64,000 nucleotides of DNA from Caenorhabditis elegans (Eukaryota > Nematoda > Chromadorea > Rhabditida > Rhabditidae), in the NCBI RefSeq assembly GCF_000002985.6, contig NC_003282.8:17360001-17424000 (forward strand). The letters run 5' to 3'. The position numbers and the translations under genes were made by a program. Positions 16,436 to 22,147 of the stretch are shown piece by piece. Below the pieces are notes generated by a model. The model worked only from the letters and a program-made list of their open reading frames with translations. It was not told the DNA's origin and made no database searches. Each line of letters starts with the position of its first letter. Within the stretch, counting starts at the first letter, position 1.

Positions 16436-19245
16436 ATGCACTGTCTATGTGTTCTTCGGAGTACGTTATGCTGTCAAATGCCCACATCTACCTATCGAAT
16501 GTTACTTCAAACGAAAGCTGTTCCAGTTCAAATAATCAAAAGAGATTTGACAGCTAAAGTTAAAAATCAGAAGTTAAATCAGAATGTGAGTTGGTAAAAA
16601 CCCAATTTGAAGATTTTTGAAAATTTCAGATTAGAAGAGTTGACAGACGTAATGCTGCATATCTTTTGAGACATACTACGTGGAAAGATTTGGTGGAATT
16701 ATATGAAATTGCAAAACCATTTCGGAAATGGATATTTTGTGAGTCACAGACCAGGGGTGTGCGGCAAATTTGCCGAATTTGCCGTTTGCCGAGCTCGGCA
16801 AATTTCGAAATTTGCCGCACACGTCAAAAATTTGACAGTGCAATTTTGACTAAAATCATTGATTTTTTCGCCAAAAATTTAGTAAAATGACACAAAATTG
16901 CGTTATTTTGATGCTTAAGCAGACATACAACACGGAACTTATTCAGAAACCAGATGAGTGTTAAGATTTCAGTAGTTTTGGCGCTCCAAAAAACATCAAA
17001 AAGTATCAAATTTTTCCGAGTTTGTTAAGCACGGCAAATTTGCCGAATTTGCCGAATTTGCCGTGCTCGGCAAATATTGAAAAAAGAGATTTGCCGAATT
17101 TGCCGAGCTCGGCAAATTTTGAGATTTGCCGCACACCCCTGTCACAGACCTTTTAAAATTTTCCTTTCATTAATTTAATCAATTTTTCAGTGGGCACAAG
17201 TTTCATGGTAGTGTCAAGTGGAATTTTTCTGATTATTCCTCGAATTTTGGGAAAGCTCATTGATCAATTTGATAGTAATACGGGAGTTCAGAAAGCCGAG
17301 GAGGTGTTCACAATGAAGATTGCAAAATATTTCAAGGAGCAGCCCATGTCGCTTGTTGGATTGTTAGCAATCGGTGCATTGGCTACAGCTGCGAAAGTTT
17401 ACTGCTTGCAAATTGCAGGCAAGTTGTGATATCCAAAATTTGTGAAGTAATTTTGGAACTTAACTTTTAGGAGTGAACATAGTTGGAAGTTTGCGGAAAA
17501 TGGTGTACAGTTCTATTATCAGACAGGATATGACATTTTTCGACAAAAACATGGTTGGCGAAATCGGGTCTCGCCACGCTGCAGATACTGTAATCGTCGG
17601 ATATTCGGTCTCATCGTCCCTTCGAGCAGGAGTTCGAGCTGTTCTCGTCGGTGTTGGCTCTATTGGAATGATGCTTATGACGTCATTGGAGTTGTCTACA
17701 GTCTCCTTTTTGACTGCTCCAATTGTGATGGGGATATTTAAAATGTTTGGGAGAGTACAGCAACAATGCACTTGGCAATTGCAAGAGGTGGCGGCAGATG
17801 TTAATCAGGTGATCTAGATTTCTGAAAATAATTTAGTATTGATAAAGATTTTTCAGACTGCGATCGAGCGAATGGCTAATATGAAAACGATTCGAATGCT
17901 CAGTGCGGAACAACAATCAATAGATGAATACTGTAAGAAAGGGGAACTGGTTTTAGATATTTCAAAAACTGAAGCTTTGGCAAAGGGAAGTCTGATTGGA
18001 TCTGTAAGTCTTAAAGAAGCAAAAATGTATGAATAAAACTAGATTTTCAGTTCCAATTCACAGGGTACTCTGCGTTCTCTTCGATCTTATTTTATGGAAG
18101 TCACCTTATCAATACGGGACATATCACATATGGTTTGTTGGCTTCATCAGAAATTTTTAAACTTTTTTTTGTTAAGGAGAGCTCTCATCGTTCTGTCTCT
18201 ACGCTGTTCTCGCTGCTGCAAGTCTCTCAAATATCTCTGGATTTTACAATGAAGTTATGAAAGGCCTCGGAGCTTCATCTAGGCTTCTCGAGCTGAAAAA
18301 TGCACAACCTATTATGAATCTGAACTCTGGAATTAAGAAGACTGACATTACCACATCAATTCAATTTGAGAACGTTTCATTTGCATATGCTGGACGCAAG
18401 AAGACTTTGGAGAATATATCATTTGACATTCCACGTGGCAAAATTACTGCCGTAATTGGACCATCTGGTAGTGGCAAGTCGTCAATTGCAAACTTAATGC
18501 TGAGACTTTACGATCCGGCAGATGGAAGGGTTACTGTAGATGGAGTTGATCTACGCGACCTGAATGCTACAACATGGAGACATGCAATTGGAACCGTTGG
18601 TCAGGAGCCTGTTCTGTTCACTTGCTCCATTCGAGAAAATATATTGATGGGAACAGAGCATCCGGAGAAAGTTAGCCAGTACGAGCTGGAGGAAGCCGCA
18701 CAGCTGGCTAACGCATTGGATTTTATTCAAGGATTTGAGAATGGTTTTGAGACGATGGTATGTTTAGCTTCACATCTTCAGATGAATTCGAACTTTTTTA
18801 TAGGTCGGAGAGCACGGATGCAAGTTATCTGGAGGCCAAAAACAACGAATCGCGATCGCACGTGCACTGATTTCAAAGCCAAAAATCATGATTCTTGATG
18901 AAGCAACTAGCGCTCTTGATGCAACCTCTGACTATTTGATTCGAATGACTTTGGATAATTTGCTGAAAAATCATAATTTGACAGTATTGGTTATTGCACA
19001 TAGGTGAGTTATATTCGACTATACTTCAGTAGATAACACATTTCAGACTCGCCACAATGCAACAAGCTGACCAAGTGGTTTACGTGAATAGAGGTCGAAT
19101 CGAAGGCCAAGGAACATTTGATGAAATGATGAAAATTCAGAATTCGATTGTTGAGCAAGAAGCAAGGCGTCGAGGCATCCCGATGAATGAGCAGATGAGC
19201 AGAGTAAATACTCCTGTGGCTCGCGGATTTTCATTAAAATTCTAG
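16436..19245 (+). CDS. haf-1: HAF-1, mitochondrial half ABC transporter (peptide exporter)
   Basis: Nine exons (16436-16585, 16630-16738, 17191-17418, 17471-17808, 17857-18003, 18051-18132, 18177-18757, 18804-19003, 19047-19245) give 677 residues, normal for an ABCB10/Mdl1-type half transporter. An Arg/Lys-containing N-terminus fits mitochondrial targeting. A six-helix membrane domain follows ([19 protein letters not shown] and others). The nucleotide-binding domain is complete: Walker [11 protein letters not shown]-loop [10 protein letters not shown], signature [15 protein letters not shown], Walker [13 protein letters not shown] and H-loop VIAHR. From memory, C. elegans HAF-1 exports peptides made by matrix proteolysis and affects the mitochondrial unfolded protein response. 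Intron 3 has a GC donor (GCAG|GCAAGT) with only one reading that keeps frame. Intron 2 holds a MITE. AATAAA at 19295 is a likely poly(A) signal. The downstream gene is convergent, 160 bp away. Confidence 0.93.
16743..17150. mobile_element. Palindromic MITE with target-site duplication in haf-1 intron 2
   Basis: The element runs from 16753 to 17140 (388 bp). Its ends are perfect 17-bp inverted repeats, AGGGGTGTGCGGCAAAT. It is flanked on both sides by GTCACAGACC (16743-16752 and 17141-17150), a 10-bp duplication of the target. Inside both ends are stacked GCCGAATTTGCCG units around GAGCTC, so long parts could fold back on themselves. No transposase is encoded, so it is non-autonomous. The insertion site is only a few bases after the exon 2 splice donor at 16739. 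Confidence 0.88.
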
Positions 19246-19405: not shown

Positions 19406-20169
19406 TTATTTTGCCATGGAAATAGCCGCCAGAACAAAGAGTGAGGATCCTACGATGAAAGACAGCTCCCGGTAGCTGGGAAATTGATCAATCTCAAAGT
19501 CGACGTGGTGCTTGTATTTTTGTGAAGCAGCGGCCACTAAAGATTGAACATCTTCTGATGAAGCTTCCAAATAGAATCGGACATCTGGAGGGCGAGAAAA
19601 TTTGTCGGGAGTTGTATGAACCTGAAAATGTAATAATTTACATGAAAAGTATAGGGGAATTTTGTAACATGTAGTTTAAATATAACTTACTAAATCAACA
19701 AAACTCTTCTTCATCTGTTGTTCTCTGGCGGAATTTAAATATACATTCGCTGTCTCAAAGTGTGGTTGAAAAATGATAGTTTTGACGTCGCCAGTCGCTA
19801 GATATGTTTGCTCAAAATTTTCCCAAGAAATCGGTGGCAATTTTTCATTGAGATTTCGATGTTCGCTTCGACGTCTGGAAGAAGTTGATTTTGAAGATTT
19901 TTTTCCGAAAATAGTTTACTTGTAAAGAAGAATTCCATGCGTCGAAATCCAGATAAACATGAGGCAACCTCCGAGAGCATAAGCGCGGCGTATTTTGGCT
20001 GAAAAACATTGTTTGGGATCTGGGCATTTTAAAAATTGGGTTACTTACCTTTATCAATTCTTTCCTGAAACGCTTTCAGTTTTGCTGGGTCCACTTGTTG
20101 AGAGTTAAATCGAATCGGCGTCCATCCTTGTAGTCGTGGCACAGAACGGAAGAAAACTCGGGAAAACAT
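19406..20169 (-). CDS. Mitochondrial FtsH-extracellular-domain protein without AAA or protease domains
   Basis: Four exons (20169-20049, 19998-19920, 19874-19691, 19621-19406) join in frame to 199 residues. The start, MFSRVFFRSVPRLQGWTPI, is a typical mitochondrial presequence, and TTTTCAG sits one base before the ATG as a trans-splice acceptor. A first membrane helix (AYALGGCLMFIWISTHGILL, about 47-66) is followed by PPISWENFEQTYLATGDVKT and a VRFYLEA strand. These resemble the FtsH_ext domain that m-AAA proteases (AFG3L2, paraplegin) put in the intermembrane space. A second helix, ELSFIVGSSLFVLAAISM, ends the protein. This is the TM1-domain-TM2 layout of an m-AAA protease, but translation stops where the AAA ATPase should begin. 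It could be an adaptor or an assembly partner of the real proteases. The family assignment is by eye. It shares a divergent promoter region with dlat-2. Confidence 0.75.
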
Positions 20170-20634
20170 GCTGAAAATCGAATGATTTAAAACAAAAATC
20201 TGTTAAGGATTACTGTAAATTTTAAAGGAACAATTATATGGAAGGCAGCTTGGTCTCGAGTGGAAAAACGCGTGTTTTCCTCTCGGACAACATGGCAATT
20301 AATTTTTTTAATGTGAATATTGGTTTCTTTTTTATTTCATTTATTATGCATAATTTTATGCTAAATAGTACACTTCGTTATTAAATTTTTTCAAAAAAAG
20401 ATTAGTTTATTTAAGTAAATATTTATTTTAAATGCAAAAAAATGCAATTGAGCGAAGAGAAAGAGGCGTTGACGGAGAAATAAATAGAGAAGTGCGGCAG
20501 AGCGCTCTTGCATTGCACACCGCTCAACAGATTTTTCCTTCAATTCCTCTTCTTCCTTTGCTAAATATTTCCGTTATTCCTGTTATGACACGCATCGTAA
20601 AAATAACAATTGATATATTTCTTCCAGGGTAATC
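20170..20634. promoter_or_regulatory. Divergent promoter region between FtsH-ext gene and dlat-2
   Basis: These 465 bases separate two genes read in opposite directions, both with mitochondrial N-termini. At 20262-20280 lies GGAAAAACGCGTGTTTTCC, an imperfect palindrome centred on ACGCGT. A GC-richer block at about 20440-20520 precedes dlat-2. Shared control is plausible but not shown by sequence alone. Confidence 0.4.
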
Positions 20635-22147
20635 ATGCTAGCCGGTAGTCAGGCTCTTCGCCACCTTTCTACTGCTGCACAAAACCAAGGGTAAGTGTGT
20701 AAAATAGATTTTTCTATTTAATAGTATTTTCCAGAGCTTGCGGTCCTGCAGTCAAGCTTCTTCTGATTCAATATGGTCTGGAAAATCGAAAAATTGATGG
20801 AACAGGCCCAAAAAACAAAAATATTCTGAAAGGCGATGTTATGAAAATAGTTGAAGCTGAAAAGCTGAAGCCGGTGGCTCATCATGCACATGCTCCAAAA
20901 GAAACACATATTGAAAATAAATCTATTGAAAAGGTTTGGAAAAATGTTTCAAAAATTACATATTGTTTTGTTTTGCAGAAATCAGACATTTTCGGCGCCA
21001 ACAATCGCAGTCTCCGTCATCACCAAGATATTCCTCTCAGCAATATTCGAGCAACAATCGCAAAACGATTGACAGCTTCTAAAGTAAAAATTCGAAATGT
21101 TATTATTGGAGAAAATATTTTATTTCAGCAGCAAATTCCTCACGAATATCAAGGTGTTGACGTTCGAATTGACGATATTCTGGCGTTGAGACAGAAATTG
21201 AAAAAATCCGGAACTGCTGTTTCGCTCAACGACTTTATCATAAAAGCCGCAGCCCTTGCACTGAGGGTAGGCTTTTCAAAATTTCTTCGTAAATGAGAGC
21301 TCTATTTCAGTCCGTGCCGACAGTAAATGTTCGATGGACTCCAGAAGGAATCGGTCTCGGATCAGTCGATATTTCGGTCGCTGTGGCTACTCCAACCGGC
21401 CTTATCACTCCAATTGTAGAGAATTCTGATATTTTGGGCGTTTTGGCGATTTCTAGCAAAGTGAAGGAGTTGTCGGGATTGGCGCGAGAAAGCAAATTAA
21501 AACCACAACAGTTCCAGGGAGGATCTTTTACGTGAGATTTATTCTATTTGTTTCGGTTACTTCAAATATAATTACAGAAATTATTGAAACGTTCACAACG
21601 TTCAAAAAATGTATCCACATCAAACAACTTCTAGAGATCTTTGAAGTTTTTTATGTTTCTGTTCTAATTTCTCGTAAGAGAGAAGAATTGATAAAGAAAT
21701 CACATGATAATCATGCAAATTTAAAAGCTATCATCCCGAAATGATACAAAAATTAGAAAATTTCAGAATTTCGAATCTTGGAATGTTCGGAAGTGTGACC
21801 AACTTCACAGCCATCATAAATCCACCGCAATGTGCCATTTTGACGATCGGAGGAACTCGTTCTGAAGTTGTATCTGTTGATGGACAATTGGAGACACAAA
21901 AATTGTAAGGACTGATACCTAGGAAATTAAAAAAAATCTCTGCCATCAAAATTAAATAATCCCATCAGATTAATATGTATTTTTTTCTAGAATGGGTGTC
22001 AATCTTTGTTTCGACGGACGAGCAATCTCCGAAGAATGTGCAAAACGATTCCTTCTTCACTTCTCCGAATCGCTTTCTGATCCGGAATTGCTCATTGCTG
22101 AACCACTTTCTCCAGAACTCGATTTTGATTTTTCGCGTTTATTGTAG
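20635..22147 (+). CDS. dlat-2: DLAT-2, PDHX-like dihydrolipoamide acetyltransferase paralogue
   Basis: Seven exons (20635-20690, 20735-20933, 20979-21083, 21129-21266, 21311-21531, 21767-21904, 21991-22147) encode about 337 residues. A short presequence (MLAGSQALRHLSTAAQ) is followed at once by a peripheral-subunit/E3-binding domain (CGPAVKLLLIQYGLENRKID, GTGPKNKILKGDV). Then comes the 2-oxoacid dehydrogenase acyltransferase fold (IPLSNIRATIAKRLTASK, VSLNDFIIKAAALALR, ATPTGLITPIVENSD, FTISNLGMFG). There is no lipoyl domain. The catalytic DHRxxDG motif is replaced by NLCFDGRAISEECAKRFL, which resembles human PDHX rather than an active E2. The likely role is therefore structural, holding E3 in the pyruvate dehydrogenase complex of the mitochondrial matrix. 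The name is from memory (C30H6.7). The next gene starts 182 bp downstream in the same direction. Confidence 0.9.

Follow-up and report, generated by a model that had tools for sequence, protein, structure and literature searches.

Does the genome of Caenorhabditis elegans encode the membrane part of an m-AAA protease as a protein in its own right, separate from the ATPase and peptidase domains, and if so, what might such a protein do? The question is raised by a small gene in a 64,000-nucleotide stretch of contig NC_003282.8 (positions 17,360,001 to 17,424,000; hereafter the window), for which an initial annotation had proposed a 199-residue product consisting of a presequence, a first transmembrane helix (TM1), an intermembrane-space (IMS) segment and a second helix (TM2) directly before the stop.

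The window gene and its surroundings

The coordinates and length given for this protein proved to be exact: it is encoded by an intact gene of four exons on the minus strand (20169..19406), with a coding sequence of 600 bases specifying 199 amino acids and a stop codon at 19408-19406. The introns (50, 45 and 69 bases) all have GT...AG boundaries, with splice sites picked from the DNA sequence. In this model exon 1 (20049..20169, minus strand) supplies the start codon and a presequence-like N-terminus (residues 1-40). Exon 2 (19920..19998, minus strand), which encodes TM1 (residues about 46-67), is bounded by a phase-1 and a phase-2 intron. Exon 3 (19691..19874, minus strand) encodes the linker and the N-terminal half of the IMS domain, including ISWENFEQTYLATGDVKTIIFQPHFETANVY at 19831-19739. 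Exon 4 (19406..19621, minus strand) carries the rest of the soluble segment, TM2 (residues about 177-199) and the stop codon. Within the protein ISWENFEQTYLATGDVK corresponds to residues 82-98 and the exon 4 motif VRFYLEA to residues 142-148.

Several compositional features are consistent with this model. Two hydrophobic segments lie at about 46-67 and 177-199, of which the second runs to the stop, and residues 1-26 contain four K/R and no D/E; hydropathy and composition thus fit a predicted presequence followed by two TM helices that bracket a soluble segment. The GC content of the exons is 0.38-0.46 as against 0.23-0.34 in the introns. The true frame also scores best for codon preference (0.11 bits/codon versus -0.03 and -0.19), a weak signal whose training set comprised just two m-AAA exons. 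A TTTTCAG splice acceptor (20171..20177, minus strand), which ends one base 5' of the ATG, is a candidate trans-splice site and would fit spliced-leader trans-splicing, as in trans-spliced worm genes. A single-sequence AlphaFold model of the protein was poor (pLDDT 45.9) and unusable for the fold.

By eye, an ABC-transporter gene that ends at 19245 is convergent with the window gene, and an acyltransferase-like mitochondrial gene with its ATG at 20635 is divergent from it, the two start codons being 466 bases apart. We take these neighbors to be haf-1 and dlat-2, respectively, and the cosmids to be C30H6 and B0495. The 465-base divergent intergenic region (20170-20634) might harbor a shared promoter. 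Papers that mention C30H6.8 (as an ERp27/PDI paralogue) and C30H6.11 (as a sand-fly BLAST hit) do not say whether either name belongs to the window gene.

No enzymatic part of an m-AAA protease could be detected near this gene. A tblastn search of the 64-kb window with the AAA-M41 stretch of SPG-7 gave no match at E <= 1. A whole-genome search for M41, with all 14 candidates scored, yielded 12 matches, none of them in the window or on chromosome II; these fall at the loci that we take to be spg-7, ppgn-1 and ymel-1, and additionally on X. In the whole-genome search for AAA none lay in the window among the 19 of 92 candidates that were scored. Hidden AAA exons 3' of the window gene are unlikely, because the convergent gene occupies that sequence.

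A paraplegin-type signal in the first half of the IMS domain

The profile check proposed with the initial annotation came out negative, in that Pfam FtsH_ext (PF06480) does not match the window protein at E <= 10; more generally, with this protein as query, sequence searches of Pfam, NCBIfam and the PDB recovered no FtsH_ext or m-AAA match, and paraplegin was not among the PDB results. As controls against the 25.5-bit cut-off of FtsH_ext, SPG-7 scored 47.3 and human paraplegin 31.0 bits, and PPGN-1, at 24.2 bits, is itself under the cut-off. Searched against the whole genome at E <= 10, PF06480 found SPG-7 and a chance-level match at 0.99, the window gene being absent. It is likewise not among the whole-genome matches of the IMS domains of human paraplegin, PPGN-1 and AFG3L2, the last of which found SPG-7 and a 0.46 match carrying stops. 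The window protein and its IMS-TM2 part, in turn, recovered from their own genome only themselves and one chance-level match (E = 1.4).

Direct comparisons gave a different picture. A single BLASTP comparison with PPGN-1 aligned 13 identical residues out of 31 (E = 1e-4), with the common pattern ISWxxFxxxxLxTGxVxxIIxxP. In Smith-Waterman comparisons none of 500 shuffles scored as high as the window protein against the IMS domain of human paraplegin (9rk6; z 9.0), PPGN-1 (z 6.7) or a stand-alone protein from chromosome II (z 5.2; see below), whereas 3/500 did so against AFG3L2 (z 3.5) and 37/500 against worm SPG-7 (z 1.7, near noise). Against four bacterial FtsH proteins (L018-L021, 4 of 18 loci, picked by eye for visible likeness, a choice favoring a match) the z scores were 2.5 (12/500), -0.3 (301/500), 0.9 (88/500) and 2.5 (15/500).

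Profiles point in the same direction. With five eukaryotic sequences (four m-AAA proteins and the chromosome II protein) the window protein scored 17.9 bits, the top of 10,000 segment-wise shuffles being 9.9 bits; when the window's 418 open frames were scored together with the spliced protein, the exon-3 frame ranked first (19.2 bits), the spliced protein second (17.9) and the third reached 4.1 bits. An eight-sequence profile, built without the chromosome II protein and including the same four bacterial FtsH, gave 15.1 bits versus 9.2 for the best of 2,000 shuffles, with an hhalign probability of 69.7%. In a shuffle-controlled hhalign comparison the score was 39.2, as against a maximum of 23.8 among 80 shuffles. 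Altogether 8 of the 18 bacterial loci entered alignments, and YMEL-1 (i-AAA) was left out of the reference set. Of two viral-contig scans for extra FtsH sequences, one returned no pattern matches and the other 200, none of which encodes a relative.

By these comparisons the resemblance to m-AAA proteins goes beyond chance. The signal rests on residues 75-116 in the domain's first half; the second half shows no signal of its own and is aligned by order (collinearity) only. Four m-AAA domains share 12 invariant residues, and the window protein keeps 6 of them, all in the first half (counted by eye). Given the pattern of Smith-Waterman z scores, the similarity at residues 75-116 is paraplegin-type, and it is convincing for this first half only. 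Hence the original description as an m-AAA membrane module without ATPase or peptidase survives in part: neither M41 nor an SPG-7-like AAA match is present in the window and the best similarity is to a paraplegin-type IMS domain, but the Pfam and PDB searches are negative and homology is convincing for half of the domain.

A second stand-alone gene and the exon structures

When the IMS domain of human paraplegin was searched against the worm genome, the matches comprised ppgn-1, spg-7, a ppgn-1 copy on X and a chromosome II locus (E = 0.0016), which the PPGN-1 IMS domain also reaches (E = 1.2). Spliced from sequence, this locus is a five-exon gene on the minus strand (C2:7708704-7707693, L044:3693-4704) that encodes 267 amino acids, with a targeting-like N-terminal region, TM1, a paraplegin-like IMS domain, TM2, a short basic tail and the stop. 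The protein matches human paraplegin in the PDB (E = 3.9e-4) and FtsH_ext with 16.7 bits, under the 25.5 cut-off. BLASTP aligns it with the window protein from the stretch preceding TM1 into the IMS domain (25/80 identical, E = 7e-4); its IMS-TM2 part searched against its own genome recovers only itself and not the window gene. A LUC7-like gene, identified by eye, is next after it on the same strand.

There are thus two stand-alone paraplegin-type genes, a grouping that we propose here and of which the chromosome II member is new from this analysis. Both lack AAA and M41 domains, end at or shortly after TM2, and share a similar I-D...I-R stretch before TM1. The chromosome II protein differs from the window protein in being clearly closer to paraplegin and better conserved; its charged N-terminal linker is longer, and it carries a short basic tail at the C-terminus. 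Its gene has no mid-IMS intron but an intron before TM2.

In both genes TM1 lies in an exon of its own, preceded by a phase-1 and followed by a phase-2 intron, within the layout TM1-IMS-TM2-stop. The intron in the mid-IMS loop is in phase 0 in the window gene and SPG-7 and in phase 2 in PPGN-1. A phase-2 intron just before TM2 is found in the chromosome II gene and SPG-7, and the TM2 exon of PPGN-1 is read in the same phase. In the alignment the pre-TM1 introns of the two stand-alone genes are two codons apart, and the post-TM1 introns are at unequal distances from TM1. The exon structures lend suggestive support to common descent; with these differing positions and the phase-2 mid-IMS intron of PPGN-1 they are not proof.

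Possible functions and known systems

We tentatively favor, with slightly less than even confidence, the reading that the window gene encodes a divergent, non-catalytic copy of the paraplegin-type TM1-IMS-TM2 part that adjusts the m-AAA protease via the prohibitin cage. Such a module would be imported and sit in the inner membrane so that both termini face the matrix and its domain the intermembrane space. There it might use the surface through which m-AAA and FtsH subunits contact the prohibitin (HflK/C-type) cage and control the entry of membrane substrates. By filling that place it could tune the amount of active SPG-7/PPGN-1 protease in the cage, or alternatively it could alter which membrane proteins reach that protease; it would not replace a subunit of the catalytic hexamer. 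According to two papers, the IMS/TM part of m-AAA is dispensable for assembly and activity but required for membrane substrates (PMC5438985, PMC12994072), and contacts between m-AAA IMS domains and prohibitins are predicted (PMC12994072, PMC5438985). On account of these sources, filling of or competition at the prohibitin cage by a free IMS/TM module appears more plausible than replacement of a hexamer subunit. In the bacterial system the periplasmic domains of FtsH engage SPFH2 domains within the HflK/C cage; the same source reports that human PHB1/2 were not stably copurified with AFG3L2/SPG7 (PMC12624060). A broader and rather doubtful proposal is that nematodes keep at least two dedicated non-catalytic paraplegin-like proteins, stationed in the prohibitin cage or on m-AAA at its IMS face, which would set which inner-membrane proteins are degraded.

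The strongest rival, unlikely but deserving serious weight, is an independent inner-membrane protein that descends from an m-AAA N-terminus and has taken up another job, such as the assembly or organization of inner-membrane complexes, leaving m-AAA untouched. In its favor, the window protein has diverged strongly from m-AAA and lacks half of the invariant residues, and the acyltransferase-like mitochondrial neighbor, 466 bases away from ATG to ATG, is compatible with a general metabolic role; yet what the protein retains is a stretch that is conserved in the paraplegin IMS domain.

It is improbable that the gene is the decaying remnant of an m-AAA duplicate, drifting after the loss of its AAA and M41 exons. 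Its product is indeed divergent from every m-AAA protein compared, and truncation does occur in this genome: near-identical partial copies of ppgn-1 exons (92-98% identity) lie near the left end of X, at C6:33883-42000 (L037, L014) and 276001-285000 (L015). In the former region the TM1/first IMS half, AAA3 and M41 pieces of ppgn-1 find a match, and the second IMS half, TM2, AAA1 (Walker A) and AAA2 pieces find none at E <= 1e-3; L015 (C6:276001-285000) holds copies of AAA2 and AAA3 on both strands. Against this, all four exons of the window gene are open, its introns are GT-AG and an acceptor adjoins the ATG, whereas stops would be expected in a neutral relic at such divergence. The intact stand-alone gene on chromosome II with its similar exon pattern also argues against a lone decaying relic.

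Even less probable is a truncated, dominant-negative subunit inside the catalytic hexamer, the sort of cap envisaged by the initial annotation. TM1-IMS-TM2 is the part that lies within the membrane and IMS layer of the hexamer, but the interactions behind subunit choice, and part of assembly, are reported to reside in the metalloprotease domain (PMC5438985), which is missing here. A regulator that joins or caps the real hexamers is also rendered less likely by reports that m-AAA hexamers form even when the IMS/TM part is absent (PMC5438985, PMC12994072).

A chance resemblance of an unrelated two-TM mitochondrial protein is very improbable: curated profiles give no match, genome searches with m-AAA domains miss the gene and the second domain half is free of signal, but the observed scores were reached by 0/10,000 and 0/500 shuffles, the exon-3 frame and spliced protein took ranks 1-2 among 418 window frames plus the spliced protein, and layout and exon phases resemble those of the chromosome II gene.

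The control of m-AAA by prohibitin cages and by the IMS/TM layer is unsettled, and naturally occurring free copies of that layer would serve as ready tools for separating its function from catalysis. The worm already offers readouts of m-AAA loss in EAT-3 level, mitochondrial elongation and lifespan (PMC5541002). Two enzyme-less modules in one genome hint at an undescribed regulation of mitochondrial protein quality control.

Among known proteins paraplegin (human SPG7; worm PPGN-1) is the closest, sharing with the window protein the order TM1-IMS-TM2 and the I-S-W-x-x-F...L-x-x-G-x-V segment. It differs in possessing AAA and M41 domains; moreover, its invariant R after GxV is T in the window protein, in which the second IMS half is unrecognizable. 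AFG3L2 and SPG-7 are alike in N-terminal layout, SPG-7 also in its phase-0 mid-IMS intron, but they are full enzymes of weak (AFG3L2) or near-noise (SPG-7) similarity. Judged by titles and the beginnings of abstracts, no stand-alone FtsH_ext protein seems to be described in the papers retrieved from the open-licence literature. To our knowledge, the known regulators, prohibitins and TMBIM5, are not copies of the m-AAA membrane part. They are inner-membrane proteins reported to bind or modulate m-AAA (PMC9379554, PMC12994072), as is likewise proposed here for the window protein; if the proposal is true, the window gene would add to them regulation through a free-standing copy of the membrane part of the protease itself.
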